DNA of 64,000 nucleotides from an uncultured Bacteroidales bacterium (GTDB lineage Bacteria > Bacteroidota > Bacteroidia > Bacteroidales > UBA932). The stretch spans positions 24,850 to 88,849 of the forward strand of contig CALVBH010000033.1 in NCBI GenBank assembly GCA_944325765.1, written 5' to 3'. Positions within the stretch are counted from its first letter, which is position 1; every line of letters starts with the position of its first letter. The notes under the pieces were generated by a model. It saw only the letters and a list, made by a program, of their open reading frames with translations, had not been told where the DNA came from and made no database searches. Below are positions 35,069 through 52,567 of this stretch, in pieces. The position numbers and the translations under genes were made by a program.

Positions 35069-36370
35069 TTATTTCACCTGCTGTTCGATGCGTCCGCCGA
35101 AAGCGAAGATGCAGATCAGGCACAGAGGGACGAGCAGAGCTCCCATAATGAAGAACGGGAGCCAGTTGCCTCCCTGTGTCAGATAAGGCACCAGGAATAT
35201 CGAAATGATGGTTCCGATGGTAGCTGCAGCTCCTCCGAGTCCGGCCAGAGAGCCGACGCTTTTGCCGGTGTAAAGGTCGCTGGCGAGAGTCTGGATATTG
35301 TTTATAGAGAACTGGTAACCGCAGAGAATCACGGCCATACAGACCACTGCCACGATTGGGTCGGAAACGAAAGCCACCACGATCAATGCCGGGAGAGTCA
35401 CCGCAGCGCCCAGGACGATGGCAAGTTTTCTGGAGAAATTCACGGTATGACCTCGCCCTACCAGCCAGCCGGAGAACCAGCCTCCTGTCAGGGAACCTAC
35501 CGCCGCACCGACATACGGAACCCAGGCCGTCATACCGATATCCTTGATATCAAAACCGTAGACATCGAACAGGTAGATAGGCAGCCAGGTCACGAACATC
35601 CACCATATAGGGTCGAGGAAGAAACGGCCGAGAATCACGGCATAGCTCTTTCTGTTCGAAAGCAGCTGTCCCCAGCTCAGTCCCTTGTCGTCCGAAACCT
35701 TGCACTCAGGCTGTCCGCTCAGGATGTAGTTTCTCTCCTCATCCGTAATCCAAGGATGCTCCTTGGGACCTTTCTTGTTTATGATAAGCCACGGAATCAG
35801 CCAGAGGATACCTAAAGAACCGATAATCACGAAAGTCAGCTTCCATCCGCAGATAGAATACAGAAGTGCGATAATGACAGGGGAAAGTATGGCGCCCACT
35901 GAAGCACCGGCGTTGAAAAGTCCCTGAGCCATAGCACGTTCTTTCTGAGGGAACCATTCCGCGTTGCTCTTGGTAGCTCCAGGCCAAGGTCCAGCCTCAC
36001 CAAGACCGAGGGCGGCCCTGAATCCGCAGAGAGACTTCACTCCCGTAGCTATGGATGTGCAGGCGTCAGAAATGCCCCAGAGCAGGACTGAAACAGAGAA
36101 GCCCTTCCTCGTACCGATCTTGTCGTAAAGTTTCCCGGAGAGCATCTGGGATATGCCGTAGGCCACCATAAAGAACATATTTATGTAGGCATACAATTCC
36201 TTGCTCTGCGTCTTGTATTCGTCTTCAGTAAGTCCCTCCGGATCTATGAGTCCCAAGGTTTCGACAATACCCTGCCACATAATGGAAAGGGTATTCCTGT
36301 CCAGATAATTTATGATGGTGATGGCCACAATCAGTGATATCACCCACCATCTCAGACCACGCAGTTTCAT
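35069..36370 (-). CDS. MFS transporter, hexuronate (ExuT-like) family
   Basis: 433 residues with about 12 transmembrane helices. It has the landmarks of the anion:cation symporter branch that includes ExuT and GarP: INYLDRNTLSIMWQ near the N-terminus, GLGEAGPWPGATKSNAEWFPQKERAMAQGLFNAGASVGAI, and a central loop with WITDEERNYIL. It probably imports unsaturated uronate monomers or DEH across the inner membrane. It lies 8 bp downstream of the KdgF-like gene. Confidence 0.88.
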   Translation of the reverse strand: MKLRGLRWWVISLIVAITIINYLDRNTLSIMWQGIVETLGLIDPEGLTEDEYKTQSKELYAYINMFFMVAYGISQMLSGKLYDKIGTRKGFSVSVLLWGISDACTSIATGVKSLCGFRAALGLGEAGPWPGATKSNAEWFPQKERAMAQGLFNAGASVGAILSPVIIALLYSICGWKLTFVIIGSLGILWLIPWLIINKKGPKEHPWITDEERNYILSGQPECKVSDDKGLSWGQLLSNRKSYAVILGRFFLDPIWWMFVTWLPIYLFDVYGFDIKDIGMTAWVPYVGAAVGSLTGGWFSGWLVGRGHTVNFSRKLAIVLGAAVTLPALIVVAFVSDPIVAVVCMAVILCGYQFSINNIQTLASDLYTGKSVGSLAGLGGAAATIGTIISIFLVPYLTQGGNWLPFFIMGALLVPLCLICIFAFGGRIEQQVK

Positions 36371-36378
36371 ATTCCGGT

Positions 36379-36723
36379 CTACTTTTTCAGGAAATCTTCC
36401 CTGTGTGGAGAAAATACGTCGATCAGGACGCCTTCTTCAAGGCAGATGCAGCCGTGAAGCTCGTCCGGAGCCACATAATAGCCGTCACCTGGGCCGATGA
36501 TGGCCGACTTGTCACCTATGATGGATTTGAATTTCCCGCTCACCACATAGGTGGTCTGACTGTGGAAATGTTCGTGCATCTGCCCCTCGGCGCCCTTGTC
36601 GAAATGCACCTTTACGAGCATAATCTGACCGTCATAGCCCATAATCTGTCTTCTGACACCAGGACCTGTGGTCTCCCATTCCATTTCCTTTTCCAACTGA
36701 TAAGTTTCGCTTCTAGTTTTCAT
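36379..36723 (-). CDS. kdgF: KdgF-like cupin, uronate linearisation
   Basis: 114 residues, a single cupin domain. The metal-binding motif is GQMHEHFHSQTTYVVSG (His, His, Gln) with a second His in PDELHGCICLEEG, followed by LIDVFSPHREDFL. KdgF converts unsaturated galacturonate or alginate-derived monomers to the linear ketouronates, which here would be DEH. Its position between the exolyase and the transporter supports this. No signal peptide, so it acts in the cytoplasm. Confidence 0.88.
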   Translation of the reverse strand: MKTRSETYQLEKEMEWETTGPGVRRQIMGYDGQIMLVKVHFDKGAEGQMHEHFHSQTTYVVSGKFKSIIGDKSAIIGPGDGYYVAPDELHGCICLEEGVLIDVFSPHREDFLKK

Positions 36724-36744: not shown

Positions 36745-38952
36745 TTACTCATATTCCACATATACCGGTCCCGTCCAGGACAACGTCCGTCCTTTACCGG
36801 CAGACACAGTGTGAACCGCTTCCCTGGAAGCATCTGATAATGCGATGCAGAGGGTAACCCGGTGTCCTCCGGCAAAGCCGTACTCTACCACAGTATATTC
36901 GCCGCTGTCCTCAAGCACATCCACCGACTCGCAGGAGTGTACCAGATTCGCGGACTGCTCCACCTGCAGGTCGTATCTTCCGTGCGTTTCCAGGCAGGAA
37001 GCGAACGTGCAGGTTTCCATATCTTTCTCCCTGACCATATAGACTGGTTCCGGACGGAGATTGAAATCGGGGTCATTGGCACCGATGCGAGCCAGGACGA
37101 TTTCCGTGGACGGGGTCGTATTCACGCTCAGGCTGTACATCCTGTCTCCTGTCATCCAGGTATAGGTAGTTTTGCCTTCACCGCCTGCAGCATTGGCTTC
37201 CACCCAAAGATGCTGGTAGCCGTTTGCACTGCCAAGAGGTTTCATCTCATCCAACGCCCGTTCATACGGTACGGTCAGGCTGATCATCTGGCCGTTGTAG
37301 TGCACCGGATAGTCCCATTTGTGCTCGATATCGCTTTCCGACCTGTATACATCCATAATCAAAGGATATTCAAGGAATGGGATATCTGTGTAGACCAACG
37401 TCCTGTGCATTTTCACCCCGTCCCAGGCGTGAGTGTCTACTGCAGAGAAGTATTTTACGGCACCGTCAAGGTCGTAAGCATAGATGTCTGGATGATATTC
37501 CGATGACTTGTCGAAATCCTGGCCGAACTGGCAGCCTTCATCCACCACCACTGTGTTGTGTGCCACAGTAGTCATAGCATAAGACTTGTTCTGGTGCGTA
37601 TAATGCCCGTTATACTTGGCTTCTATGTTCAGGAAACGGGATGCCCCGTAGTCCGTGACTATCTCATATCCGTTGTCGTAATACGCCACGGTCAGCTTGT
37701 CGTAATGTCCGTGGCTCAGCCCGTGTGAAGTGGCCTTGAATGTCAGGAGGCTGTTCAGCCCCGGCCTTTCGGAGCGTATCAGAGCCAGGCCGCCCTCATC
37801 CCCGCTTCCTCCGTCACGATAGAGGACGCTTCCGTAGGTCATCGGCTCGGCCAGACCGTCCTGTATGCCCTTTGCCACGGCATAACCGGCATCGGAAACC
37901 AGGACTTTCTTCTGGTAGTCACGGGCCACCGAAAGCAGCTGCCTGTCAGACTTGTCTGCGTTATAGGCGATATCCACGGCATATATCAGTTCCTGGGCAT
38001 CGTATCCTTTCTCCAAGGCATCGTTGAAACGCAGGAAAACCCCATCATATGTCATTTGGAGCAGGGCATCCACGGACTTAAGGATGATGGAATCCCGGTA
38101 TGAGAAAATATCCATTTCCGGCTTCACGTGGTCTATGCACTGTGCGAAAGTCACGAAAGGCCAGATGGCATATCTCAGATAATAGGCACCCTCGGTAAAA
38201 TAGCCGTCCGGAGAGAAAAGCCGGTCGAGCTGCAGGATGAAACCTCCGTTTTTTCCTGTCTTGTCGGAGCCGTACAGAGCCTGGTCCACGAGATTGTCGT
38301 CACCCATCACCATCCCTATCATTCCCACGGCAGCTGTAGCCCAGGTGCCGTGGTTGTGCATCTTGTTGAACACCTTGTTGTTGGCACGGTTATCCGGAGT
38401 CCCGTTCATTATGAAGTCCGCGACCTGGTAAAACAGGTTCTTTTCTATGTATCTGCGATCCTTTTCGGAAAGGAAGTCGTAGACGCAGTCGTATGCCACC
38501 GAAGTATGCACGAGCCATACGCTCTCATTCAGAGTCTGCCAGAAAATTTTGCCAGGAGTGGATGAAAGTCCGAGAGGGTGGTAGCCGAGCGTGGGATACA
38601 TCTTTGCGTATGCCAGAAGTATGTCCCGGACCTTGCGGGCATAAACCTCATCGCCGGTAAGTTGCCAGGCTATGCCACAGTTGTACATATCATAGTAATT
38701 CTGCTTGTGCGCCTCGTGGCTGTAGCCTCCGCCGCCATCTTTCGGCTGCGGTACGCAGAGAGTCCTTTTCACTGCAGCATCGGCATCGCACATCAGGTCC
38801 TGTACGGACGCATCGAACTGCGGGACGGTCCCTGAAGTAGCCTTGATCTGCCGGACGCCTTCACGGGTCAGAAGCAGAGTCGGATGTGTCACCTCCGCCG
38901 ATGCTGACAGCGAAACACACAAGACAAAAACGGTTAAAACATATCTTATCAT
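36745..38952 (-). CDS. PL17-family oligoalginate exolyase
   Basis: 735 residues with a cleavable signal peptide (about 18 residues). The N-terminal alpha-barrel alginate-lyase domain contains the conserved HNHGTWATAAVGM (Asn-His pair) and TEGAYYLRYAIWPF (catalytic Tyr). The C-terminal heparinase II/III beta-domain has SHGLSHGHYDKLTVAYYDNG. PL17 enzymes release unsaturated monomer from oligoalginate in the periplasm. The ATG overlaps the stop of the preceding PL6 gene. All family landmarks are in place. Confidence 0.92.
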   Translation of the reverse strand: MIRYVLTVFVLCVSLSASAEVTHPTLLLTREGVRQIKATSGTVPQFDASVQDLMCDADAAVKRTLCVPQPKDGGGGYSHEAHKQNYYDMYNCGIAWQLTGDEVYARKVRDILLAYAKMYPTLGYHPLGLSSTPGKIFWQTLNESVWLVHTSVAYDCVYDFLSEKDRRYIEKNLFYQVADFIMNGTPDNRANNKVFNKMHNHGTWATAAVGMIGMVMGDDNLVDQALYGSDKTGKNGGFILQLDRLFSPDGYFTEGAYYLRYAIWPFVTFAQCIDHVKPEMDIFSYRDSIILKSVDALLQMTYDGVFLRFNDALEKGYDAQELIYAVDIAYNADKSDRQLLSVARDYQKKVLVSDAGYAVAKGIQDGLAEPMTYGSVLYRDGGSGDEGGLALIRSERPGLNSLLTFKATSHGLSHGHYDKLTVAYYDNGYEIVTDYGASRFLNIEAKYNGHYTHQNKSYAMTTVAHNTVVVDEGCQFGQDFDKSSEYHPDIYAYDLDGAVKYFSAVDTHAWDGVKMHRTLVYTDIPFLEYPLIMDVYRSESDIEHKWDYPVHYNGQMISLTVPYERALDEMKPLGSANGYQHLWVEANAAGGEGKTTYTWMTGDRMYSLSVNTTPSTEIVLARIGANDPDFNLRPEPVYMVREKDMETCTFASCLETHGRYDLQVEQSANLVHSCESVDVLEDSGEYTVVEYGFAGGHRVTLCIALSDASREAVHTVSAGKGRTLSWTGPVYVEYE

Positions 38953-41114
38953 TATAATTCGATTTTTCTGTTTGACAGGATAGTGCCTGAGTTCTCGAAG
39001 CTAAGGTCCGAAACAGTGATCTTCTCCCACGGGGCATCATCAAGCCTGACGGCATAGCCGCCACGTCCGCTGTCTATGAAGTCACAGCCTGTGATTTCGA
39101 GAATCTGGGCACCGATGATGCGGATGACTGAGCCGCGGACCTTGTTGCAGCAGTCATAGAAACGGCAGTTCCTGACATAGACATATGGTCCTGCCGTGCT
39201 TTCATCGCTGCCTCCCCTGTAAATATTTATCGGAAGCCCGAGAATCCTGGTGAAAGTACAGTCCTCGATGACCACGTCATCCGCACTGTAGCGTCCCTTG
39301 TCTTCGAGTTCGCCGGCATAATTCACTGCATCACCGGACAATGCTTCGAAATGGCAGTTGCGCACAGTCACGCTTTCCGCAAAAGTGCCCTTGGTACCCT
39401 TTACAGGGATGAAACCGCTTTCACCGAAATTTATGAAAGTACAGCCCTCGACTGTAAGCCTGTAGACATCAAGCATATCCGCCGCCGTGGATATACCGCC
39501 TTTCGCCAGGCTTCGCCCGGGAGAGAGGACTCCGTTGAATGTGATGCCGGATACAGTCAGGTCAGCGCCGTCTGCTATGGTTATCATATTTTCAGAACGC
39601 CTGCCCACATAGCAGAACTCCGGAGAGACACCGTCTTCAGCCCTGATGGTCAGTTTGGAAGATACCGTCAGACCCTGCTCCAGAAGATACAGGGAATCGG
39701 TCAGTACCACTTCAGAGCCATCAGGAGCGGCAGCCACCGTACCGGCGAGATCATCATCCGCGCCTACCTTGAATATCCGAGGCTGGGCCGCGACAGGAGA
39801 GCTATACACACCGTCTTCATACCAGGAAGCACCGGTATCCGCAGTGAATTCATCCAAAGCCGGGACTGCAGGGGCATTCTTTCCGGAAGCCTTGGAAAAA
39901 CCTTCCGGCAGGGCGGCTCCATCGGCAAGCACGGCCTTGTTCGATCTGAATTCCAGCCCTGAAGCGTCAGCGAATGTCTCGTAAGGAGTGTCCGAAGACT
40001 TGTTCCACACCGTATTGGATCTGAACAGAACATTCACCGGAGCGAGAGTCCGCTCATAGTCATAACCAGTACCGAACTCGATGGAACGGCAGTCATAGAA
40101 AAGGTTGTCCTCGACAAGGATATCCTGTACCTGCATATACCTGTTCGGCAGCGAATTAGGCACCGCGCTCATAAGCGCCAGCGCCGAAAAGAACCTGTCT
40201 CCGGCCAGTGAGTAGAACCTGTTTCCCCTTACAGTCTGATCAGCTCCGACTATCCTGACTCCGCCGGTATTCCTTACACCGTTTCCTATAAAGGTATTGC
40301 CTTCGGCTATGTTCCTGTCTCCGTGACGGAATGCCAGCACGCCTTCGCACTCATAGAGAAGGTTGCCGGTAATGACATTCTCGCAGGACTTGATGGATAT
40401 GACCTCCACTTCGCCGTTGCAGCGGTAGAAGACATTGTCTGAAATATGTGTGCGTGAGGCTTCCATACACTGCTGGGATGTCCCCACCCTGATGGTTTCC
40501 GCTCCGTTCGAGCCGTAGACCGGACGGTAGCCGAACCAGTTGTGGTCGATGCTGTGGCGGTTGTCTATGCAGTCTTCGTAGTTCAGCCAGACTATCAGTG
40601 TCACGCCGAGGCTTTTCTTGCCTGTAAAAGAGCAATGGTCCACCCTGTTCTCCTTCCCGTAGAGAAAGACGTAGCTGGACGCATAGTCGCGCCTCGGGGC
40701 ATTGTAGGAGTCTATGACGCAGTCTGTCAGACGGCAGTTATGCGCCAGGTCATCGCCTCTGCGGAATTCGACCAGGGAACCTTTGTTCCGGACAGGAGTC
40801 CCGTCACGGAACATCAGCGAAGACACGGTAAGATAACTTCCGTATATGCTCAGGGTAGAAGTGCCGGTGATGACCGTCTGTCCCGGTTTTTCAGCCACGA
40901 CCACGACAGGCGCCTCAGCCGTGCCTCTCCCTTCCCATACCAGTTTCAGATCCGCATATTCTCCCGGAGCCACTGTAAGGGTATCACCAGGCGAGGCTGT
41001 CCTGAGCGCCTCTTCCACCTCCGGCAGGGTGACATTTTTCTGCGCGGCCCCGCATATGCCGGATGCTGCCATTGCGGCAAAGGCCGTCAATATGATTTTT
41101 CCGTATACTGTCAT
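38952..41114 (-). CDS. PL6-family alginate lyase with second beta-helix domain
   Basis: About 720 residues from ATG 41114; a GTG at 41123 overlaps the upstream stop and is less likely. Signal peptide about 22 residues. The N-terminal beta-helix (to about residue 380) has the PL6 active site, EVISIKSCEN (Lys) and LAFRHGDR (Arg). A second right-handed beta-helix (about 450-720) follows, with repeated rungs such as TVSGITFNGVL and TVRNCHFEAL. Two-domain PL6 enzymes such as AlyGC are exolytic on guluronate-rich alginate; a similar role is inferred. Confidence 0.88.
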   Translation of the reverse strand: MTVYGKIILTAFAAMAASGICGAAQKNVTLPEVEEALRTASPGDTLTVAPGEYADLKLVWEGRGTAEAPVVVVAEKPGQTVITGTSTLSIYGSYLTVSSLMFRDGTPVRNKGSLVEFRRGDDLAHNCRLTDCVIDSYNAPRRDYASSYVFLYGKENRVDHCSFTGKKSLGVTLIVWLNYEDCIDNRHSIDHNWFGYRPVYGSNGAETIRVGTSQQCMEASRTHISDNVFYRCNGEVEVISIKSCENVITGNLLYECEGVLAFRHGDRNIAEGNTFIGNGVRNTGGVRIVGADQTVRGNRFYSLAGDRFFSALALMSAVPNSLPNRYMQVQDILVEDNLFYDCRSIEFGTGYDYERTLAPVNVLFRSNTVWNKSSDTPYETFADASGLEFRSNKAVLADGAALPEGFSKASGKNAPAVPALDEFTADTGASWYEDGVYSSPVAAQPRIFKVGADDDLAGTVAAAPDGSEVVLTDSLYLLEQGLTVSSKLTIRAEDGVSPEFCYVGRRSENMITIADGADLTVSGITFNGVLSPGRSLAKGGISTAADMLDVYRLTVEGCTFINFGESGFIPVKGTKGTFAESVTVRNCHFEALSGDAVNYAGELEDKGRYSADDVVIEDCTFTRILGLPINIYRGGSDESTAGPYVYVRNCRFYDCCNKVRGSVIRIIGAQILEITGCDFIDSGRGGYAVRLDDAPWEKITVSDLSFENSGTILSNRKIEL

Positions 41115-41119
41115 AATTG

Positions 41120-42508
41120 TCACCAGTTTTTGCCTGCATTGTCCCGGATTTCCTGCATCCGGGCGGTATAATCCTCAAGCTGAGGTTCGTTCTCCGACAC
41201 GGGGAGCTCTATGCCGCGGCATTTGCCTCCGTATATTACGTTTCGCAGCCAGTGCATCTCGCTCTCAGGAGTATCTATCACATATACAGGAGTATAGCTT
41301 GACTTGTTCTTCGAATAGAGGATATTGTCCTGGAAAACTATGTTTTCGGGTGCGGAGTCCTGACTGTCGCGGCCGCCATAATTCACGACGATTCCGTAAC
41401 GGCAGTTCTCGAAGACATTGCCTTTCACGAGGGCGTTCTTCACTGTCCAGTAGCCGCTGAGTTCGGCATCTGATTCGCCCCGGACTATACAGAGAGCCGA
41501 CTTGTAGCCGGAGCCTGTCATATTCAGGAAGACATTGTCCTCGACCGTGTGGCCCTCGCCGATGATACGGACTCCGCCCACCTCAGCCTTGCCTCCGGAA
41601 AAGAAATAGTTTCCCTTTACAGTGCAGCGGTTTCCGTGACGGAGTGTCAGGGCACCCTCGCTTTCCTCGAACAGGTTTCCGGTGTAGACATTTCCGCAGG
41701 ACTTGTTCGAAACGATTTCAGCCCTCTCGCCGTGGCACTGGAAGAAATGATTCCCGCTCACGGTACATTCTGCTTCAGACATCGAAAAACCGCTGGTGCC
41801 TATGCGGATGGTTTCCTGCCCGTTTTTGGCCGAACCGCTGTCTTCATAGTGTGTGTACGGACGGGTGAAATAGTTTCCGCTGATGGTATGGTGCGGGATT
41901 ATGCCGTCTTCCATCCACACGACCAGGAGACATCCCATATTCCGTTTGTTCAGGAAGGTGCAGTGGGAGACTTCGTTGTATGTCCCGTATATGGAGACCC
42001 ATTTGGAGTCCGTTTCCGAAACCTTGCTTCCGTTTCCGTCTATGAGGCAGTTCCTGAATGCGCAGTGTGTGCTGCCCTTTGAAAGTGTCATAATGGAAGA
42101 CTTGGACGAAGTGTCCAGATCTGTCCAGCTGAAACCTTCGGCTATAATCCAGCTGCCGGAAAGGGATATGGAGGATATGCCCGTGAATATGACTTTCCCT
42201 GGCGTCTCGGCGCGGAAAGTCACAGGTGCGGCTTCAGTGCCGTCAGCCTTGAACTTTATGACCGCAGCGTCGTATGTCCCGTCTTTCCAGATGACAGCAT
42301 CGCCGGGCTGGAGTTTCAGCGTTTTCAGTTCGTCCGTGGAGGAAATGACGTATTCTTCTCCGGCGGCTTCCTCTCCGTCAGGCTGATGGCCGTCCGGAGC
42401 TTCAGTATCCTGATCCTGTCCGGGAGCAGGGTATGATTTGGCTTCGTGACAGCCCGAAAAGAGGAGGGCTGCCACAAAGCATACAGATACAAACGTTTTC
42501 CCGTACAT
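41120..42508 (-). CDS. PL6-family alginate lyase, lipoprotein
   Basis: 462 residues, lipobox FSGC and an acidic spacer rich in D, E and G (about residues 25-50) that would hold the enzyme away from the membrane. One PL6 beta-helix: EIVSNKSCGN with catalytic Lys, ALTLRHGNRC with catalytic Arg and His, then GGVRIIGEGHTVEDNVF. It is a probable cell-surface endolyase producing oligomers for SusC/D. It overlaps none of its neighbours but lies 5 bp from the next gene. Confidence 0.9.
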   Translation of the reverse strand: MYGKTFVSVCFVAALLFSGCHEAKSYPAPGQDQDTEAPDGHQPDGEEAAGEEYVISSTDELKTLKLQPGDAVIWKDGTYDAAVIKFKADGTEAAPVTFRAETPGKVIFTGISSISLSGSWIIAEGFSWTDLDTSSKSSIMTLSKGSTHCAFRNCLIDGNGSKVSETDSKWVSIYGTYNEVSHCTFLNKRNMGCLLVVWMEDGIIPHHTISGNYFTRPYTHYEDSGSAKNGQETIRIGTSGFSMSEAECTVSGNHFFQCHGERAEIVSNKSCGNVYTGNLFEESEGALTLRHGNRCTVKGNYFFSGGKAEVGGVRIIGEGHTVEDNVFLNMTGSGYKSALCIVRGESDAELSGYWTVKNALVKGNVFENCRYGIVVNYGGRDSQDSAPENIVFQDNILYSKNKSSYTPVYVIDTPESEMHWLRNVIYGGKCRGIELPVSENEPQLEDYTARMQEIRDNAGKNW

Positions 42509-42520: not shown

Positions 42521-44521
42521 TTATTCGTTCAGAGGGTTGGACCAGTAAAGGTCGAATTCGATGAGGGAAGTCCTGCCGTTTGCGGCGTCTTCGACGGCTT
42601 TAAAGTCCGAGTCTATGTCGGTGACGTTCCTGATATAGATATAGCCCTGTCTCAACACCCCGGACGCATCTGCAGGGTAATCCCCTGTCTGTCCCTGTTC
42701 AAAAGTCAGATACTGGACCAGAATCACATTGCCTATCGTCCACTTCGAGCTCGTACCTTCGGATGCCAAAGATACCTGATGGGCGCTCCCGAATCTATCC
42801 GATACGAGAATGTCATCGATTGTGCCTTCCTTGGCTGCCGTTTCTATGTCCGTATCGGAACTGAGGGTCCTCATAGCGATGACAGGGGTTCCATATGTCT
42901 TTGGCAATGCTGTGTTGCCAGGATAGAAATGGTAGGCTATCCTGTTGTTCGTGCCGGCCGGACTGTGCAGATAGATGTTCAGATTGCTGGCCGTTGACGT
43001 AAACAGATACGGCTCGACAGCATAATAATCATCTGCAACGGCTCCGGAAGCAATCGTATTCGCTCCGGAAATGACTGCATTTGAAGTGAGAGGTTCTCCG
43101 GCGGCATCGTACATATTCTTGTCCACCTTAGACTCTGCCCACTCCTGAGCTGAAATCACTCGGCCTTCATTAAGCATAAGGAACGAGTAGTTTCTTCCGT
43201 TGTCCGAATAAACCTTGTTCGAATTGCAGCCGAGTCCCAGTTTCAGTCCTTTCGTATAATAGAACGGATAAACCATTATCGTCAGTTCGTCTTCGTTGCC
43301 GTCAGTATCGGTTACTTTCAGTGTGACATCCCTGGCTGCCGTCCCGGTAATTCCTGCCGGCATCACGAACTTGAATTCCGTGGCAGTCGCCGAGCCATCG
43401 ACGATTTCAGTCTCTACACCATCTACGGTCACACCGGCCAGGGAGAAAAGGTTCTGGCCAGTCACTGTCACTTCCCTGCCGAGGTACAGATTGGCGTATT
43501 CCGGATCTGAAGAAACGGCAGACTCAAGTACAGGCGGCGGAAGCGGAATAGGAGAGGTGTCTATGGACACTTGCTGTGCGACCGTAACCGTAGTGGTCAC
43601 ATCTCCGAATTCAGCTATCAGATCATAGGCTGCTACAGCCGGGTCCTGTTCAGGAATAGTCGCGCTTATGTTGACGGTCAGGGATGTCTCTGTCTGTTCC
43701 TTAATGCCAAGTCCGAATTCACCCCATCTGACAGCCTTTATCAAATCCAGATTCTGCCCTGTCAATACGATATCCTGGTCAAGAGCCAGTGTACCTCCCG
43801 GTTCATAAGCATTGAAGACAGGTATGCTGAGAAGGAACTTGCTGTCCTGCGACGTGACGGCGAGATTGCCGCCGGACCAAACGGCGGTGATGTCTATCTC
43901 GGTATCGGCATCTGTCACCGTGATGCCTTCAGGCACGGCTACGCGGACTTCCCCCTCGTCGGTATCGGCAGCAGGCTGATAGAGGAATGCAGTGCTCGGC
44001 ACCTCCACATCGGCAAAGACGACTTTGGTAAGCTGGTACAAGTTGCGCCCGGTGATAGTCACCTCGGTACCTGTCGTGCCTTCCTTAGGAGAGAAGTCCT
44101 CGACTATCGCATCCGTCACGGGGACTGTCACATAGTACGGATAATTGAAGATCACTGTCTCGCAATCCGAATCATAGACTTTCAGGGTCACTGCATAAGG
44201 GGCGTCCTGCTGCGGATATGTCTCGGCAGGCAAGGCCGGAATCTCGAATACAAGGGTCTGAAGCGATGCCTCGATTATAGGAGCCTCGATGTCGTCTATG
44301 GTCACAAGACCCACCCTGTCAAGATTGAAGCCTTTTGCAGTCACATAGGTAGTGGCATATGCCCTCACCGTACCGCTCTCATCGGCATTCGGGTCGAGTT
44401 TGTTGTGCGTCACGTCTATGGCCGGCGTGTTCTTCACCTCTATGCCTTGTTCTTTCTGGCAACCGGCTATGGCTGCCAAAGCAGCCAGTACCGGCAATAT
44501 CGTCTTATATAATCGTTTCAT
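42521..44521 (-). CDS. IPT/TIG-repeat surface glycan-binding lipoprotein
   Basis: 666 residues, lipobox AIAGC. Four IPT/TIG-like beta domains follow one another (EVTITGRNLYQLTKVVF; DIVLTGQNLDLIKAVRW; EVTVTGQNLFSLAGVTV), separated from a C-terminal domain with SDNGRNYSFLMLNEGRVISAQEWAES and ending IEFDLYWSNPL. This is the architecture of a SusE/F-position surface glycan-binding protein. Its start overlaps the stop of the preceding gene (TAATG), so the two are translated together. Confidence 0.85.
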   Translation of the reverse strand: MKRLYKTILPVLAALAAIAGCQKEQGIEVKNTPAIDVTHNKLDPNADESGTVRAYATTYVTAKGFNLDRVGLVTIDDIEAPIIEASLQTLVFEIPALPAETYPQQDAPYAVTLKVYDSDCETVIFNYPYYVTVPVTDAIVEDFSPKEGTTGTEVTITGRNLYQLTKVVFADVEVPSTAFLYQPAADTDEGEVRVAVPEGITVTDADTEIDITAVWSGGNLAVTSQDSKFLLSIPVFNAYEPGGTLALDQDIVLTGQNLDLIKAVRWGEFGLGIKEQTETSLTVNISATIPEQDPAVAAYDLIAEFGDVTTTVTVAQQVSIDTSPIPLPPPVLESAVSSDPEYANLYLGREVTVTGQNLFSLAGVTVDGVETEIVDGSATATEFKFVMPAGITGTAARDVTLKVTDTDGNEDELTIMVYPFYYTKGLKLGLGCNSNKVYSDNGRNYSFLMLNEGRVISAQEWAESKVDKNMYDAAGEPLTSNAVISGANTIASGAVADDYYAVEPYLFTSTASNLNIYLHSPAGTNNRIAYHFYPGNTALPKTYGTPVIAMRTLSSDTDIETAAKEGTIDDILVSDRFGSAHQVSLASEGTSSKWTIGNVILVQYLTFEQGQTGDYPADASGVLRQGYIYIRNVTDIDSDFKAVEDAANGRTSLIEFDLYWSNPLNE

Positions 44522-46257
44522 TACTGTACCTTTGTATAATCGTAATCATATTTCTGCCAATAGCAGTCGAATGTGATCTGGGTGCCGCGCCAGTCATTGT
44601 TGGACTGTATCCAGCTGATCTGTTTCAGATGGAGGATACCTATCCTGAGGATGTTCTCGACTTTGTTGTCGGCATTGTATCCGTTATAGGTGTAGTATGC
44701 CATCAGGATCACGCAGTCGGAATCGGAAAGGTCCTGGACCGTATTCTCGGTACCTGTCGGAGTGCTGACTCCCGGCCAGGCCGGATTGGAATTCTGCTTC
44801 AGCCCACCTGCAGCGGATGAATATCCTATGCCTCCTATGGTCTTGGCCTCCAGATCTATCGGGAACAGAGTCTCATCGATATTCTCGATTTCCCCGTTCA
44901 CGACCTGGCGGATAAGCTCTGCCTCCGCGGCATTGTCCGGGTTCATAGTCCTGAACGTGAGGATAGGTGTTCCGGAGGTTTTCGAATCCTTGTTCCCGGT
45001 GATATAGTTGCCGTCAGCGTCGCGGAAATTCTTGATTTGTCCGTTTGAATTTGCCGGGCTGTTAAGCTGGAGGTTCTTGCCGCTGTTGGAGTATGAGAAG
45101 AAGAAGTACGGAAGCACTGAATAATACTCCTCTTCAGTGACAGTACCTTCCTTGAATACATTTCCGGACTCATACATCGCCCCGTTGTATTTCATAGCAA
45201 TCGGGTCGAGGGCGGTCGCCCAGTCGACATTCGCATATGCCTTTCCGTCCTGAGGAGAGAAGAATGACTTGTACAATGCATCATCGTTCACAGACTGGCA
45301 TTCAATGGTCACATTCTGCCAGAAGTAGACAAGCGGCACATAGACTGCAAGCGTATGGGTGAAGTCCGTATATTCATAACCGTCGAATCTGTACATCCTG
45401 ACCACGGTCTGCGTATCTCCGTCAGGGAAGTCTGCCGCAGGGACAGAGAATGACAGGGATTCGGACGTAGCTGTAAACACGGCATCGAATTCCTCGGCAG
45501 ACCCGTCCCCCTGGGAATCAGCCCTGCGGAGAGTCACACGGCTGATATTGTCAAGGTTCTGCCCTGTGACGGTAATACTGCTTCCCACGGCAGTCCTTTC
45601 GAACTCAAAGCCTTCATAATCAAGCTCAGGATAGTGCTTGACAACCTTTATGACAGGAGCCGTCTCAGATGACGTGTAAACAAGTCCGGTCTCATCATAG
45701 TAAGACATAGTGATCTTCGCGTCTTCTCCGGCCACATACGGTACACGGAGTACGATTTCGACATCGGACTGGGTGATGATTTCCGCCTCATACCCATCTT
45801 CGTCCTCATCGGATTTGAAAAAGACTCCCGCTACGGAATTCATATTGGTGCCTGTCACCAGGATGTTTTCACCGAAGTCGGCACTTTCAGCCAGCAAGCC
45901 TTCGGTAATTTCAGGTACAGCGAATGTACAGGTAAAATCTTCTTCAGAACTGCCGGAACCGTCAGGATTCTCCAGACGGATCTTTCCGCCCTTTACAGTA
46001 TTGCCTACTTCTATGGAAAGGCGCTCGTCCGAAACCTTTTCCACGATTTCGACTTCCACATCACCGATCCAGGCAGCCGTGACATTGTTCAGATATTTTC
46101 CGGTCACGACGATCTCGGCACCTGCCGGAGCGGATTTCGGAGAGAAAGAGCTGATGACAGGGGCGCTTTCAGACGACTCGTTCACGCTCAGGGTCTCGCA
46201 GGAAGGCATCACCAGTATGGATGCCGCCGTCAATATGGGTATAATAAACTTTTTCAT
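44521..46257 (-). CDS. IPT/TIG-repeat surface glycan-binding lipoprotein
   Basis: 578 residues, lipobox VMPSC. About three IPT-like domains (SFSPKSAPAGAEIVVTGKYL; ENILVTGTNMNSVAGVFF; SSITVTGQNLDNISRVTL), then a C-terminal domain with YYSVLPYFFFSYSNSGKNLQLNSPANSN and ending ITFDCYWQKY. The end is a distant paralogue of the other two SGBPs of the locus. It sits directly after SusD, the usual place for a surface glycan-binding protein. Confidence 0.85.
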   Translation of the reverse strand: MKKFIIPILTAASILVMPSCETLSVNESSESAPVISSFSPKSAPAGAEIVVTGKYLNNVTAAWIGDVEVEIVEKVSDERLSIEVGNTVKGGKIRLENPDGSGSSEEDFTCTFAVPEITEGLLAESADFGENILVTGTNMNSVAGVFFKSDEDEDGYEAEIITQSDVEIVLRVPYVAGEDAKITMSYYDETGLVYTSSETAPVIKVVKHYPELDYEGFEFERTAVGSSITVTGQNLDNISRVTLRRADSQGDGSAEEFDAVFTATSESLSFSVPAADFPDGDTQTVVRMYRFDGYEYTDFTHTLAVYVPLVYFWQNVTIECQSVNDDALYKSFFSPQDGKAYANVDWATALDPIAMKYNGAMYESGNVFKEGTVTEEEYYSVLPYFFFSYSNSGKNLQLNSPANSNGQIKNFRDADGNYITGNKDSKTSGTPILTFRTMNPDNAAEAELIRQVVNGEIENIDETLFPIDLEAKTIGGIGYSSAAGGLKQNSNPAWPGVSTPTGTENTVQDLSDSDCVILMAYYTYNGYNADNKVENILRIGILHLKQISWIQSNNDWRGTQITFDCYWQKYDYDYTKVQ

Positions 46258-46269: not shown

Positions 46270-47766
46270 TTAATATCCGGGATTCTGGGCTATGTCAGGA
46301 TTGATATTGATCACTGAAACAGGTATCGGAAGAAGGACCTGCCAGTCAGCTATGGGGTTCACGACATAGTCGTAATCGGAATAGAATGTCTCGCTCGCGA
46401 GAAAATCGTTTACCGTCACGGTGGCGATTCCCCATCTCATCAGGTCGAACCATCTCTGGTTTTCCATAGCCAGTTCGACCCTGCGCTCATTTCTCACAGC
46501 TTCACGGAAAGTATATTTCGAATCCACCGAGGAAAGGTCATAGGCAGGGATACCCGCACGCTCCCGGATCATATTCAGGTAGTCGAGAGCTGTCTGTGTC
46601 GGTCCTTCGAGTTCGTTCAGGATTTCGGCATAGAGGAGAATCACATCTGCAAGACGGATTACAGGCCAGTCGTTCTCGGCATCGTACTCGTTTGCCATAT
46701 CGTTCTGTATAAATTTGTTGCACCAGCGAGCTTCGGTATAAGCGCCTGTAACTATATTCGTATAGCCCTCCTGGAGGACAACATCCTTTCTCTTGTCTCC
46801 CGGATTCTCGTTATAGGCAGCTATAAGGTCATCCGTCGGGAAATTGAAATGCTTCGGTGATCCGATGCAGACGCTTCCCTGGTTGTTGGTAGGGCCGAAA
46901 AGCGTGGTAAAAGGCGAACCGAGGCCGAGGTTCCCGGACTTGTAGCGTACAGCGAAGATGATTTCGGAGTTCATCTCGTTGTCGGGAGAAAATATCTGGT
47001 CATAAGGGACCAGGGCGGCTGCGCTTTTCGGATTCCCGCAGGCCGAGAGGACATCTTCAAGCAGTGTCCTGGCATAGGCATACTTTTCATCGCCCGGGCT
47101 GTAGACCGTCGTATAGAATTTTGCCAGAAGCGCCTTCGCTGCCTTCATATCGGCACGTCCGAGGTCTGCGTCCGCATAAGTCTCAGGGAGAAGATTCCCG
47201 TCCACTATGGCGGTAAGGTCTTCTTCTATCAGAGAATAGATATCCTCCTTGGGGGATCTCTGCATATTCCTGGCTTCGTCAGGGCTTATCGCACCCTTGA
47301 CGAGGAATACCGGTCCCCAGAGACGGACGAGGTTGAAGTAAATGTGGGCCCTGAGGAATCTCGCCTCGCCTTCGAACTGCGCCCTTTTCTGCTGGTCTTG
47401 CACCACGTCGAGATGTGAGAGCACCTTGTTGGCCCGATAAATTACCACATAGGATTTGTCCCAATAGTCCTGCACGTAAGCGTTGGCAGTCGTAATGGTC
47501 CCCTGGTCGAGCTGCTCCACCAGCTTGGTTTCTCCTGTGGAGGAGTTGTTGGACCTCATCCTCGCATTGTCACTGCGGAGCTCAGTCACGGACCATTCAT
47601 AGTACATAGCGCCGTGGAGAGCATTGTAGACACCTATCACGAGGTTGTTCAGGGAGGCTTCGTCCTTTACATAATCGTCTTCGGACACTTCCGAATACGG
47701 ATATTGGTCGAGGTTGCAGGAAAGGACCAGAAGGCCTGCAGCCAGTATGTATAATATCTTTTTCAT
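46270..47766 (-). CDS. susD: SusD-family nutrient-binding lipoprotein
   Basis: 498 residues, lipobox VLSC, and the SusD helical framework with tetratricopeptide-like N-terminal helices (EGEARFLRAHIYFNLVRLWGPVFLV), the RNERRVELAMENQRWFDLMRWGIA segment, and a C-terminus ending in LLPIPVSVININPDIAQNPGY. It caps the SusC channel and binds oligosaccharide. It pairs with the SusC gene 12 bp upstream; alginate oligomers are the inferred ligand. Confidence 0.93.
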   Translation of the reverse strand: MKKILYILAAGLLVLSCNLDQYPYSEVSEDDYVKDEASLNNLVIGVYNALHGAMYYEWSVTELRSDNARMRSNNSSTGETKLVEQLDQGTITTANAYVQDYWDKSYVVIYRANKVLSHLDVVQDQQKRAQFEGEARFLRAHIYFNLVRLWGPVFLVKGAISPDEARNMQRSPKEDIYSLIEEDLTAIVDGNLLPETYADADLGRADMKAAKALLAKFYTTVYSPGDEKYAYARTLLEDVLSACGNPKSAAALVPYDQIFSPDNEMNSEIIFAVRYKSGNLGLGSPFTTLFGPTNNQGSVCIGSPKHFNFPTDDLIAAYNENPGDKRKDVVLQEGYTNIVTGAYTEARWCNKFIQNDMANEYDAENDWPVIRLADVILLYAEILNELEGPTQTALDYLNMIRERAGIPAYDLSSVDSKYTFREAVRNERRVELAMENQRWFDLMRWGIATVTVNDFLASETFYSDYDYVVNPIADWQVLLPIPVSVININPDIAQNPGY

Positions 47767-47778: not shown

Positions 47779-50700
47779 TTAAAATTTAAGATCGATGCCG
47801 AAGGTAATGGTAGATGTCAGAGGGAAGCCGCCTCTCTGATAGCCGTCTATCATCGGAGTGTCATAGGCTCCGCTGGTCATACGGGCCTCGGGGTTGATTC
47901 CTCTGTAATCCTTGCTCCAGATATACAGGAGATTGTTCCCTGAGAGATAGAGTCTGAGACCGTTGAGCTTGTTGTTCAGGTCTTTCTTCGAGAAAGTATA
48001 TCCGATAGTGGCATTCCTGAGACAGACGTAGGAACCGTTTTCGAGAGCATAGTCCGTAAGCATAATATCATATCCCTGGCTCTTGACATATATGGTCTTA
48101 CCGTCGCCAGGATGCGATGCGCTGACCCAGCGGTCTTCCAGATAAGCCTTGTTATAACGGTAGGATTCGTTATAGTAGCAGTCTCCGTTGAAGACTGTCA
48201 CGCCCTGGACTCCCTGGATGAGGAAAGATATGTCGAGCTTGCCTATCTGGAAGGTATTGGTCATACCGTATGTGAAGTCAGGATACGGATCTCCGAGAGG
48301 AATCCTGTCCTCATCATTCAGGACACCGTCCTCGTTGTAGTCCAGGATTCTGACACCGCCCGGCACGTCTGCCGAAAAGTGAGGATTGGCCTGGATCTCT
48401 TCCAGAGAATTCCAGACTCCGATAGTCTTGAACCCGTAGTACTGGATAAACGGATCTCCGACACGCGCGATGTAGTTCTCGTTCCTCTCTCCGGGAGTAA
48501 TGACTTCGCGCTCGCCGCCGATTTCCAGAAGACGGTTCCGGTTGAGTGAGAAGTTTATGTTCGTGTTCCAGCTGAAATTCTTCCGGTTGAACTGATAGGT
48601 GTCGAGCTGTATTTCGAGACCGGCGTTACGGACACGTCCGATATTGTTCCAGTAATTCGTAAAGCCTGTAAACGAGGATGTCGGCTGTTCGAAAAGAAGG
48701 GCTCGGGTTATGGAATAATATCCGTCCACTCCGAGGGTGATCTTGCCGTCGAGTACGCCGAAATCGAAGCCGACGTTGAACTCATCCGTCTGTTCCCAGG
48801 TGATCTCCTTGTTTGCCAGTGTAGTGGAGGTGTTTGCGGAGCCTGGTACAAGTGACCCGGTACCGGAACCTGTCACATAATTCGCTCCGTTCAGGACTTC
48901 CTGAGATGCCAGATAGTCGACATTGTTGTTTCCGGTCACACCGTATGAGGCCCTGAGCTTGAGGGCGCTTATCCAGTTGACGTTCTGCATAAACGGTTCT
49001 TCAGAGATTCTCCATCCGAGTGAGACGGACGGGAACCAGGCGTTCCTGTGTCCTCTGGAAAAGAGTGAAGAGCGGTCGAGACGGATGGATGCTGAAAGCA
49101 GGTATTTGTCTGCATAGCTGTAGGATACACGGGCGAGAGCCGATTCGAGGACGATGTCCGCATCGCGGTGTGTGCCTGTGCCTGCTCCGTTGCCGTTGTT
49201 TTCGGACGCGAGTTCGAAAATAGTGGCGGCGTTCAGGGTTTCGATATCATCGGTAGGAAAACCTGTAGCAGTAAGCGCTACCTGCTGGACCATAGTACGT
49301 TCGAGGGTGTATCCGAGAAGGCCGTCGATTTTGTGGCGGCCGAACTTGCCGCTATAGTTCAGGGTATTCTCCGAAAGGAGGTTTATATATCGGCTGTCAT
49401 AGTATGATGCCTCGCTTGGCATTCCGTCTTTGGTGGCATTCTCCTTAGAATAGTTATACGACGGGGAATAGCGTACATTTACACCGTCGGAACTCTTGAA
49501 TGTCAATCCCTTCGCTATCTGAATCTGGATATAGGCATTGGCGACGGCCGACAGCTTCTCGCTCCAGCGGTGGGTATTCGCCATAACGCTCTTCGGGTTG
49601 TTGTTGGCCGAATTGAACGGGCTTACACCATTAGTCCACGTAGGATTGCCGTACTCATCCGGGTCTCCCACCGGAGCCACGATATTGTTGAAGTGCGAGC
49701 CTCGGGCGAAACCGGTATTGCCGCCGGTAAGGGCGGTAGTCCAGTCATTGTGATAGACCGGGAGGAACGATGGTGTACGGTAGAAGTCGATGAAATTGTT
49801 CCTCGGGCGGCTGGACTTGGTGTAGTTCATAGATACGTTGTATCCGAACTTGATTATCCTGGAAAGGTCGATATCGGCACGGGTCCTGAAGTTGAACTTG
49901 TCTACCGCATTCTGCCACATAATACCTTCATCGTGGGTATAGGCGCCGGAAGTATAGTAGCGGAATCCCTTCTTGCCGCCCGATACGGAGAACTGTACAT
50001 TCGTAATGTCGGTAAAGTCTCTCAGGGCTTCCCGCTGCCAGTCCGTAGAACCGATATTCTCCTCGATCCAGCCTGCCACCTTGTCCTGGGTACGTACCGC
50101 AGGACCTCCCCAGGCGGCTTCTTTCTCAGCCCACTCAAGCCACTCTGTCGCTGTCAGGATATTGTGGAGCTTGTAGGCATACTTCATTCCCTGATATACT
50201 TTCACCGTATAGGAAGGCTTGTCTATTTCACCGCTTTTGGTGGTAATCATAATGACTCCGTTCGCTGCGCGAGATCCGTAGATGGCTGCTGAAGCCGCAT
50301 CCTTCAGGATTTCGATGGACTTGATATCCGCTGTGTTCACGGTGGAGAGTCCGTCCGGGACTGGATAGCCGTCGATAATCACGAGCGGAGAACTGTCTGC
50401 AGAGATGGATCCCGAACCGCGGACCCTGATACTCGGGGACACGCCGACCTCGGATGTGGTGTTGTTTATGGACAGTCCTGCCACCTGACCCTGGAGAGCT
50501 GTCGTCAGATCGGAAACCGGACGGTCGATAAGGGATTCTCCCCCGATCTTGGAGATGGAACCGGTCAGATGCGATTTCTGGACAGTACCGTAGCCTATGA
50601 CCACCACGTCATCGAGGAGTGTGGCATCTGCAGACATAGTTACATCCAGGACATCGGAAGCACCCACCTTTATTTCCTCTGTCCTGAAGCCCACATAGGA

Positions 50701-50931
50701 AAATACGAGGACAGGATTTTCCTCACTTACGGTCAGCGAGAATTTTCCGTCCAGGTCGGTAGCAGTGCCTGTAGCTGAGCCTTTTTGCACGACAGAAACG
50801 CCGATTAGCGGACCATTTGCGTCAGAAACGGTACCTTTTATGGTCCGCTGCTGGGCAAATGTATATGAGACTGATACCATCATCATAAGGATGAAAACAG
50901 TCAGGTTTCGTGACATCACCTTTTGTAGCAT
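47779..50931 (-). CDS. susC: SusC-family TonB-dependent oligosaccharide transporter
   Basis: 1050 residues. Signal peptide, then an N-terminal carboxypeptidase-like domain (IKGTVSDANGPLIGVSVVQKGS), the plug (VVIGYGTVQKSHLTGSISKIGG; RVRGSGSISADSSPLVIIDG), and a 22-strand barrel ending in the outer-membrane signature FGIDLKF. The internal ATG at 50916 (MSRNLTVF) is an alternative start. It imports oligomers across the outer membrane with TonB energy. It follows the esterase gene in the operon. Confidence 0.95.
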   Translation of the reverse strand: MLQKVMSRNLTVFILMMMVSVSYTFAQQRTIKGTVSDANGPLIGVSVVQKGSATGTATDLDGKFSLTVSEENPVLVFSYVGFRTEEIKVGASDVLDVTMSADATLLDDVVVIGYGTVQKSHLTGSISKIGGESLIDRPVSDLTTALQGQVAGLSINNTTSEVGVSPSIRVRGSGSISADSSPLVIIDGYPVPDGLSTVNTADIKSIEILKDAASAAIYGSRAANGVIMITTKSGEIDKPSYTVKVYQGMKYAYKLHNILTATEWLEWAEKEAAWGGPAVRTQDKVAGWIEENIGSTDWQREALRDFTDITNVQFSVSGGKKGFRYYTSGAYTHDEGIMWQNAVDKFNFRTRADIDLSRIIKFGYNVSMNYTKSSRPRNNFIDFYRTPSFLPVYHNDWTTALTGGNTGFARGSHFNNIVAPVGDPDEYGNPTWTNGVSPFNSANNNPKSVMANTHRWSEKLSAVANAYIQIQIAKGLTFKSSDGVNVRYSPSYNYSKENATKDGMPSEASYYDSRYINLLSENTLNYSGKFGRHKIDGLLGYTLERTMVQQVALTATGFPTDDIETLNAATIFELASENNGNGAGTGTHRDADIVLESALARVSYSYADKYLLSASIRLDRSSLFSRGHRNAWFPSVSLGWRISEEPFMQNVNWISALKLRASYGVTGNNNVDYLASQEVLNGANYVTGSGTGSLVPGSANTSTTLANKEITWEQTDEFNVGFDFGVLDGKITLGVDGYYSITRALLFEQPTSSFTGFTNYWNNIGRVRNAGLEIQLDTYQFNRKNFSWNTNINFSLNRNRLLEIGGEREVITPGERNENYIARVGDPFIQYYGFKTIGVWNSLEEIQANPHFSADVPGGVRILDYNEDGVLNDEDRIPLGDPYPDFTYGMTNTFQIGKLDISFLIQGVQGVTVFNGDCYYNESYRYNKAYLEDRWVSASHPGDGKTIYVKSQGYDIMLTDYALENGSYVCLRNATIGYTFSKKDLNNKLNGLRLYLSGNNLLYIWSKDYRGINPEARMTSGAYDTPMIDGYQRGGFPLTSTITFGIDLKF

Positions 50932-50954: not shown

Positions 50955-52471
50955 TTATCTTTCCCAGTCATCTGTCCTGAACGGAGGCACCGGATTTCCT
51001 GCAGTATCCTTGAGATTGGATTCCATATAATTCCGGAACGAGTAACGGACGGCCACAGGAGTGCTGACTTCCGGAGAACTGACTTCGACCCTGCACGGAT
51101 CACGTTTTACGACAGCATCGGCTTCATAGAACTTACGGTCCTTGCCGGCTATCATAAAGCCGCGGACGGGCTCTCCGTATGAGGGGCACAGGCCGTATTT
51201 CGCATTTTCGAAGTAAACTATGATCTTACCGTCACCGATTTCAGTCCCGGTAGGCCGCTGATATCCGGACGGAAGTCCCGAGAAGCCGTATTCGGATACT
51301 AGGATATTCCAGGCCAGCCGGTCAGCGACCTCCGACTTGCGGGACGGGTGTATGCACTCTTCCTCGCCGCAGTCTTCCGTGACCACCGCGAGGCTGTGAG
51401 GTATGGTTTCGAGTGATTCGAGCTGGTTTTCAACGAAAAAGGCGCGGGTATCATCCATTGAATCCCCATAAGAATGCGGGGCTATGGTCACGAATGCGAA
51501 AAGCATACTGTCATCTTCATCGTGCCAGGCCTCGCGCCAGGATGCGACCATAGCCGTCTGCATCTCTGCATAGTGGGTATAGTCCCTCCTGTTCGAGCAG
51601 CCCTGATACCAGAGAAAGCCTTTCGCGGCATATGGGGCGAGAGGATGGATCATAGCATTGAACAGAGTCCCCGCCTGATCAGGCTTTTTCCTGCCGGTAT
51701 TTCTGACCGCGAGCTTTTTTTCTATCGCCGAGTCAGCAATGACGCCTTCAAGAGATGATTTCAAGGCGTCTGCCGGAGTCCAGGCTTCGATTTTGGTACC
51801 TCCGAATGCACTGACAATGATTCCTACCGGTACTCCAAGGGCATCGGTCAGACGCGTGGCGAAACCGTAAGCTATGGCAGAAGTATATGAAACGCTTTTG
51901 GATGAGGCATCCTGCCATTTCCCTTTCACATCGTCCCTGTAAACATAGCAGGAGTCCCGCTCTACATTGAATATATGGATCTTTCCGGAGTATTCAGGAG
52001 CTTCGAGCACTGTCTGCATAGCACCTTCGACAGGCTGGAAAGTGTAGCCTCTGACCGGCATAGCCATATTCGACTGCCCTGAGCATATCCAGACCTCTCC
52101 GAGAAGGACGTCAGTTACTGTCAGAGTATCGCTTTCTGATGCTATGGTGATTTCATACGGGCCTCCTGCATCGGCAGTAGGCAATGTCACTGTCCATAGA
52201 GAGTCACACCCCCCCCGTCTGCAAACCGGGCATCATACTCTCGCCCGTCCCAGGATGCTGTCACAGTGACTTTCCCATCAGGATTCCCCCAGCCCCAGAT
52301 TGACGCCATCGTGTTCTGCTGCAGGACCATACCGTTCGAGAACAGGGACGGCAGCCTGAGAGAGCGGACGTCCGATATGTGTGCAGAGGCGGAAGCAGCA
52401 AAGAAAAACGTCGCTGCGAATATGGTGAATATGCCTGGAATCAGACAGGCCGATGATTTTTTGTGTTTCAT
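50955..52471 (-). pseudogene. Sialate O-acetylesterase-like (SGNH) protein, frameshifted at a G8 tract
   Basis: Two frames make one protein of about 505 residues. The first (52471-52187) holds the signal peptide and LPSLFSNGMVLQQ; the second (to 50955) continues TLPTADAGGPYEITI, the SGNH nucleophile block ICSGQSNMAMP, WYQGCSNRRDY, and IHPSRK near the end. The break is at a run of eight C on the + strand (52209-52216). One extra G, or two fewer, on the coding strand would restore the frame through LWTVTLPT. It may be phase variable, a sequencing error or a recent pseudogene. It is the first gene of the PUL operon. Confidence 0.8.
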
Positions 52472-52501: not shown

Positions 52502-52567
52502 TGGTCAACCAGATTGGTTTACCAATTACTCTTCTGCAAATATGAAAATCTTTTTCCAATAAACAAA
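52502..52567 (-). promoter_or_regulatory. Promoter and operator of the main alginate operon
   Basis: On the - strand TTTG (52567-52564) is followed after exactly 19 bp by CATATTTG (52544-52537), a one-mismatch TAnnTTTG. Ten bases further down is ATTGGTAAACCAAT (52526-52513), a UxuR-like palindrome, and next to it a second near-palindrome TGGTTGACCA (52511-52502). The arrangement fits repression by the GntR regulator. Confidence 0.75.

Follow-up and report, generated by a model that had tools for sequence, protein, structure and literature searches.

The window, by which we mean the whole 64 kb stretch of DNA that was analyzed, belongs to a 2.27 Mb, 88%-complete draft genome of the Bacteroidales near Rikenellaceae and carries an alginate PUL (Table 1). 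The main operon is read from the minus strand, beginning with a CE20-like carbohydrate esterase and ending with an 824-aa protein for which Pfam, NCBIfam and PDB sequence searches gave no match and which has homologues at L003, L004 and L026. Within this operon, the two IPT/TIG proteins are probably surface glycan-binding proteins, and the short-chain dehydrogenase (SDR) is a probable DEH reductase, its 106 PDB matches including the DEH reductases 4tkl and 4w7i, neither of them top-ranked. The reading frame of the CE20-like esterase breaks at an eight-base C run (52209-52216, minus strand), for which sequencing error, decay and phase variation are candidate causes; in one relative (L189), a single open frame spans the entire examined stretch of this gene.

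Beyond the main operon lie a divergent esterase gene and, again on the minus strand, a PL6 lyase gene followed by an unassigned gene and a GntR/FCD regulator gene. The product of the unassigned gene matched no family in Pfam or NCBIfam, and homologues with 49-68% identity to it occur in 19 of 27 loci that encode a relative of the regulator. An earlier note on this DNA had described the locus as encoding a GntR/FCD regulator and no HTCS or SusR. The regulator is indeed there (27087-27788, with PF00392 and PF07729), and neither an HTCS nor a SusR turned up among 30 ORFs scanned between 22.6 and 63.7 kb, a subset of the ORFs in that interval.

Two further open frames fall outside the PUL. One, at 61378-62508, combines serine-resolvase, HTH_7 and META domains. 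The other lies on the 6.9 kb contig C38 of the same genome, where no operator with zero or one mismatch was found: it is a 1886-aa open frame (L118:464-6124) with PL6, PL6 and PL17 domains that are 40-43% identical to the PUL enzymes, possibly a fusion of three enzymes that belongs to a second cluster of alginate genes.

Table 1. Genes and putative regulatory features of the alginate PUL, in window coordinates.
Feature	Position	Strand	Basis
GntR/FCD (FadR-subfamily) regulator, proposed operator binder	27087..27788	minus	PF00392, PF07729
Protein without family, between PL6 and regulator	27826..28746	minus	homologues only
PL6-type alginate lyase	28755..30251	minus	PF14592
-7 box TAACTTTG, esterase promoter	30301..30308	plus	10 nt from ATTGGT
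Putative second-promoter operator ATTGGTTAACCAAT, between divergent genes	30319..30332		sequence search
-7-like box TAATTTTG, PL6 promoter	30342..30349	minus	9 nt from dyad
Alpha/beta-hydrolase esterase, divergent from PL6	30422..31438	plus	family match
824-aa protein, last gene of main operon	31450..33924	minus	no family
Short-chain dehydrogenase (SDR)	34234..35037	minus	family match
MFS transporter	35069..36370	minus	family match
KdgF-like cupin	36379..36723	minus	PF07883; KdgF name from position and literature
PL17 oligoalginate lyase	36745..38952	minus	family match
PL6 alginate lyase	38952..41123	minus	family match
PL6-type lyase	41120..42508	minus	PF14592
Two IPT/TIG-domain proteins	42521..46257	minus	family match
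SusD homologue	46270..47766	minus	family match
SusC-like TonB-dependent receptor	47779..50931	minus	family match
CE20-like carbohydrate esterase (SASA), first operon gene, frame broken	50955..52471	minus	family match
Putative second operator dyad TGGTCAACCA, centre 13 bp from first	52502..52511		dyad search
Putative primary operator of main PUL operon, ATTGGTAAACCAAT on gene strand	52513..52526		sequence search
-7 box CATATTTG, main PUL promoter	52537..52544	minus	one base off TAnnTTTG
-33 box TTTG, 19 nt above -7 box	52564..52567	minus	spacing and letters
Perfect 19-bp inverted repeat, 8-nt loop	52566..52611		inverted-repeat search

Dyads below the -7 boxes of two PUL promoters

The earlier note's starting observation, that the same palindrome stands at the main PUL operon and at 30319 and keeps the same distance from a -7 box, was confirmed: the two places read ATTGGTAAACCAAT (52513-52526) and ATTGGTTAACCAAT (30319-30332), and at both of them ATTGGT begins after a gap of 10 nt from the TTTG of the -7 box. 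The common dyad, ATTGGTNNACCAAT, has only two exact copies in the whole 2.27 Mb draft genome, both at promoters of this one PUL, and no one-mismatch copy in the same sequence. Given the base composition of the window, the expectation is 0.003 exact dyads for 64 kb and 0.11 for the whole genome, so that two copies are more than chance would supply. When up to two mismatches were allowed, the number of places genome-wide was at background level (21, versus 34 for the reversed control pattern).

The promoter on the minus strand at 52.5 kb is organized as TTTG-N19-CATATTTG-N10-ATTGGTAAACCAAT. The corresponding pattern TTTG-N17..20-NANNTTTG-N6..16-TTGGTNNACCAA, which was composed post hoc once the site had been seen, occurs a single time in the window (52514-52567) and in none of 100 shuffles. 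The dyad at 30.3 kb is flanked by opposed boxes, TAACTTTG-N10 on the plus strand and TAATTTTG-N9 on the minus strand, and may thus serve two divergent promoters; a -33 TTTG at the usual spacing was found at neither of them. The perfect inverted repeat at the upper end of the 52.5 kb promoter is a probable terminator of the upstream M3 peptidase gene.

A second dyad, TGGTCAACCA, which is absent from the earlier note, follows the main operator immediately on its downstream side. The same place reads CTGGCTGACCAA, CTGGTAGACCAG and CTGGCAGACCAA in three relatives (L003, L005 and L006, respectively), the dyad being exact in one and changed at one half-site base in two. By these letters, the second copy is conserved, mostly in a weaker form. 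Tandem arrangements recur in the stretches around 61 exact sites, with second exact dyads at 13 bp (20 counts), 15 bp (7) and 17 bp (4), and nine counts together at all other distances up to 45 bp; pairs of exact sites enter these counts twice. At 35 of the 61 sites, a [TC]AnnTTTG box stands at a distance of 8-15 nt from the dyad, on one or both sides, compared with 118 of 12200 random positions from the same stretches, a contrast that appears stronger because the random positions include coding DNA. This spacing would place the operator within the first transcribed bases, counted from a start predicted by the box, and such a placement would suit a repressor.

A palindrome that is self-complementary and sits at the presumed transcript start might act in the RNA, as a 5' hairpin that stabilizes or attenuates the mRNA, instead of as a DNA operator. 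We regard this as scarcely credible. The half-site TTGGT/ACCAA is constant across families while its flanks diverge (judged by eye), one copy has a -7 box on either side, the two facing opposite ways, tandem copies are spaced at 13, 15 or 17 bp, and the presence of the motif tracks a clade of regulators, as described below.

Co-occurrence of the motif with one clade of GntR/FCD regulators

In relatives we sought the exact motif TTGGTNNACCAA, with the reversed pattern as control. A search anchored on the regulator yielded 27 loci with a GntR relative from 84,980 species genomes, and 16 of them carry exact TTGGTNNACCAA on the examined stretch. A homologue of the divergent esterase is present in 16 of the 27 loci, and the site lies beside that esterase in 15 of these 16; at L026, which has both regulator and esterase, no site was found. 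At L012, L017 and L019 the site immediately precedes the GntR gene. The first stretches of L005 and L006 contain alginate genes and no site; in both genomes the sites stand on that contig at a distance of about 20 kb, some preceding the esterase and others separating CE20 from SusC. The L003 genome has two sites only, 22 kb apart as in the window's own genome, one before CE20 and the other between the esterase and PL6. Together, the L003, L005 and L006 genomes hold seven sites (2, 3 and 2), versus none for the reversed control. For G687, the one of these genomes with three sites, two of the three were examined for context.

Anchoring on the window's PL17 lyase instead gave 29 other loci in 296 genomes of the phylum. 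All eight loci with a GntR of at least 35% identity carry the exact motif and none of the 21 others does (p 2e-7, a value that is too small, as all such p values here, because related species are not independent samples); 19 of these 21 negatives were searched on the fetched stretch, and G150 and G253 genome-wide. Sorted by kinship, the same loci have the motif in 8 of 10 cases within the class and in 0 of 19 outside it. A further 393 genomes of the order added ten PL17 loci, five of which carry the exact motif (G598, G297, G411, G672 and G605); G314 and G390 have, beside the GntR gene, sites with one mismatch only, G591 and G655 have neither regulator nor motif, and no site was found on the 4.4 kb PL17 contig of G622, which like that of G411 (5.6 kb) is short. 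Over all PL17 loci, exact TTGGTNNACCAA occurs in 13 of 16 with a GntR/FCD orthologue and in 0 of 23 in which none was seen, where G297, G622 and G411 are counted as regulator-present with a GntR outside the fetched stretch and absence of the regulator was judged on the fetched stretch only for 19 of the 23. The earlier note had held that absence of the motif from the alginate PUL promoters of relatives would speak against it; the motif is present there. Judged by this conservation, the dyad is a real site and a functional one.

Genome-wide counts of the single dyad were a mostly uninformative test, and we relied on the PL17-anchored comparison and on a tandem pattern. Most PL17 genomes of the class show no clear enrichment of the single dyad (site/reversed control: 10/8, 13/6, 11/15, 12/13, 9/13, 23/7, 8/2 and 27/11); the values for two genomes without a close orthologue of the regulator are 29/18 (G150) and 5/8 (G253). 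The excess of TTGGTNNACCAA in G150, in G162 (23 vs 7) and in G182 (27 vs 11) falls only partly within alginate loci. The tandem pattern TGGTNNACCANNNTGGTNNACCA, sought in 395 genomes of the class, was found at 13 places in eight genomes, versus three places in three genomes for its reversed control. Ten of the 13 places are at alginate genes: one in the window's own genome, where the window site is the single match, three in G107, two of which overlap to form a triple copy, one in G103, two in G088 and three in G130. As G130 gave no PL17 match, its locus was found from the DNA pattern alone. The other places lie beside GntR and SDR genes (G784) or inside reading frames (G118 and G1037).

The regulator itself matches PF00392 with 58.9 bits and PF07729 with 73.4 bits, both above cut-off, and so joins the GntR winged HTH to the FCD domain of the FadR subfamily. 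A search with it in its own genome (E 0.001) returned only itself. In a tree of 61 rows, from which L028 (a faulty short extract) and L029 (partial) were omitted, the window regulator falls in a 42-row clade with support 99/99 that comprises all 29 motif rows and 13 others. The GntRs of five motif-bearing alginate loci of the f6 genome family fall in it. E. coli UxuR and ExuR pair elsewhere (100/100), on long branches that make the exact placement of the E. coli rows approximate. The eleven GntRs from motif-free PL17 loci form a separate clade. PL17 loci outside the class with a different GntR clade and without this motif are G051, G062, G066, G188, G003, G008, G030, G207, G228, G258 and G278.

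The FCD residues Asp148, His152 and His196 are present in 42 of 42 clade rows and His218 in 41 of 41; we take these four to match the FCD metal site. This site usually senses small carboxylates. Arg39 and a PQSG wing are likewise found in all 42 clade rows, and the ten rows examined from the other PL17-linked group have N, L, F or M in place of Arg39. In our reading of the alignment, Arg39 would be the HTH contact position at which, according to the available text of PMC4494728, arginine favors a G/C pair.

We also considered that the site belongs to another DNA-binding protein and that the neighboring GntR is a bystander, as the many sites in G150, which has no orthologue, could suggest. This appears very unlikely, given that the regulator finds no second copy of its kind in its own genome, that motif and GntR clade occur together, and that the motif matches the FadR-subfamily consensus.

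Comparison with E. coli UxuR and ExuR

The earlier note had read the palindromes as the regulon of a UxuR/ExuR-type hexuronate repressor whose DNA code was inherited across phyla. The evidence does not support this reading. The regulator shares 26% identity with E. coli UxuR and 20% with ExuR and lies in a separate clade, and orthology was rejected on these grounds; among NCBIfam models, NanR (103.5 bits), LldR (83.5), GlcC (71.9) and PdhR (67.1) all outscore UxuR (58.9), every one of these scores being far below its cut-off. TKGT/ACMA, as given in the available text of PMC4494728, is the general consensus of the FadR subfamily, which makes the shared "code" a trait of that subfamily. With GT and AC two nucleotides apart, TTGGTNNACCAA has the form of a FadR-type operator (GT-AC 2-3 nt apart), on the premise that it is the operator of this regulator.

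The operator letters that had been cited for E. coli fared unevenly: ATTGGTATACCAAT was not found in 13 kb around uxu or 10 kb around exu, and two-spaced near-matches exist at uxu only. In E. coli K-12 these have one or two mismatches, namely ATTGGTCAACCATT and TGTGGTTAACCAAT between gntP and uxuA and TTTGGTTGACCAGT before uxuR, and exu has just a weak three-spaced one, in agreement with the GT-AC spacings of 2 nt for UxuR and 3 nt for ExuR in the text available from PMC4494728. Two-spaced ATTGGT/ACCAAT is thus approximated at uxu, not at exu, and exact in the window's genome. By its letters, then, the dyad resembles UxuR sites, but within the subfamily consensus. The E. coli PdhR and LldR operators share the ATTGGT/ACCAAT half-sites (LldR with one mismatch) and differ in having three bases between GT and AC; the site at pdhR is exact but three-spaced.

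UxuR and the window regulator have the GntR/FCD family and two-spaced TGGT/ACCA operator-like sites in common. UxuR, however, controls hexuronate genes, whereas in the window's genome the site is carried by the alginate PUL only. No site was found there at uxaC or at the kinase/aldolase pair, in a genome that is 88% complete. Specifically, the KDG kinase and KDPG aldolase genes, which the earlier note had named as places to look for the motif and which we considered as targets, lack it: no site with up to two mismatches accompanies the PfkB/KDPG aldolase pair on contig C43, nor do contigs C13 and C63, which hold other PfkB genes, contain any site with 0-2 mismatches. The two-nucleotide spacing, the near-matches at uxuA/gntP and uxuR and the sites at Alistipes uxaC genes described below would fit inheritance of a UxuR-type regulon, and we nonetheless consider it very improbable in view of the low identity, the separate clade, the model scores, the site-free uxaC and the subfamily-wide consensus.

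A repressor model and its possible extension

The site, its promoter geometry, the tandem dyad, their conservation and their co-occurrence with the regulator clade are direct observations. Our preferred reading, to which we give a probability of about 0.87, is that the GntR/FCD regulator whose gene lies in this PUL is an AusR-type transcriptional repressor and that the palindrome is its operator; regulator binding, repression and the identity of the ligand are what we infer. Without alginate, a dimer would occupy TTGGTNNACCAA just downstream of the -7 box, at about +8 to +20. A second dimer would probably bind, in the case of the main operon, to the weaker dyad centred 13 bp beyond. The bound dimers would block transcription of the CE20-SusC-SusD-PL6-PL17-KdgF-MFS-SDR operon. 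The 30.3 kb operator would control the esterase and the genes for PL6, the unassigned protein and GntR; the regulator gene follows the other two on the minus strand and may therefore be co-transcribed with them from this operator, which would probably amount to autoregulation. Basal lyase activity would release unsaturated uronate, to be converted to DEH and KDG, and one of these, most likely KDG, would bind the FCD domain and release the repressor. Among the observations that count against the model are the lack of a -33 box at 30.3 kb, the promoter of the regulator gene itself, where an ATTGGT half-site and no full dyad was found, the loci that have the regulator but no exact site (G314, G390, G622 and L026), and the weak genome-wide enrichment of the single dyad in most PL17 genomes of the class.

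The primary description of AusR, from Zobellia galactanivorans, is reportedly that of Dudek et al. 2020 (NAR 48:7786). AusR belongs to the GntR family and represses the alginate utilization system; its operators come in one, two or three copies and its effectors are metabolic intermediates, as far as the available texts describe it (PMC7874173, PMC8286568, PMC8073546), and a repressor mechanism of this kind is thus already published. The described features agree with the present locus: a GntR-family gene inside the alginate PUL; one to three operator copies (here single at 30319, double at 52502-52526 and triple in G107); and proposed release by catabolic intermediates, a release that is likewise only proposed here. 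The comparison is one of described features, with the AusR sequence and operator letters outside it, and Zobellia is a marine flavobacterium whereas our genome is from the Bacteroidales. We conclude that the operator is very probably a further case of a switch type already known.

The alginate PULs of B. eggerthii and B. ovatus CP926 also contain GntR genes and, like the present locus, combine a GntR/FadR gene with KdgF, MFS, oxidoreductase, PL6, PL17 and SusC/D genes, joined in B. eggerthii by CE20; the available text (PMC11381880) describes no operator for them. A Vibrio alginate locus has GntR genes as well (PMC13390454, from the text accessible). Our search of the open-licence literature turned up no mention of this operator for gut Bacteroidales, and a search for the motif letters gave matches that were unrelated by title and abstract. 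If the model holds, TTGGTNNACCAA directly below a -7 box, often doubled at 13 bp, would mark AusR-type alginate PULs of Bacteroidia from DNA alone. It also suggests that this seaweed-polysaccharide PUL is under the control of a one-component repressor and not of an HTCS, and it makes the question of the ligand, KDG or DEH, testable.

Sites near another uronate gene hint at a wider regulon. The uxaC gene (PF02614) is present in 28 of 30 genomes. Among 20 Alistipes genomes that have it, TTGGTNNACCAA precedes uxaC exactly in five and with one mismatch in five more (the upstream DNA of one of the 20 genes was cut off); neither form was found before uxaC in the window's genome or the L003-L006 genomes. 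Alistipes stretches with TTGGTNNACCAA upstream of uxaC include L182, L184, L187 and L191, and in A. montrealensis a second site (L183:1501-1512) lies between GH76/GH88-like and chondroitin-lyase-like genes. The neighbor of uxaC is DUF4861 in the three Alistipes genomes scanned, and the dyad overlaps the apparent -33 box of this neighbor gene, an overlap that may explain part of its conservation. Some Alistipes sites lie inside genes (L185, L192).

It is conceivable, if doubtful, that the regulator clade is a Bacteroidia-wide sensor of uronate (KDG) whose regulon shrank to the alginate PUL in the lineage of the window. The Alistipes regulator and operator would then control the glucuronate isomerase gene with its DUF4861 neighbor and, in A. 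montrealensis, the pair of chondroitin (GAG) lyase-like and GH76/GH88-like genes as well, with KDG, the intermediate common to both routes, as the ligand. We rate this reading lower because the dyad is not enriched in seven whole Alistipes genomes (11 sites vs 12 for the reversed control). Should the same regulator read the Alistipes uxaC sites, KDG rather than DEH would be the expected signal. For uronates in B. thetaiotaomicron, LacI-family regulators are described in the available text of PMC3878776. On contig C43 of the window's genome (L174), the PfkB kinase and KDPG aldolase genes adjoin, and the DNA upstream of them resembles, in our reading, the start of a LacI-type regulator gene on the other strand.
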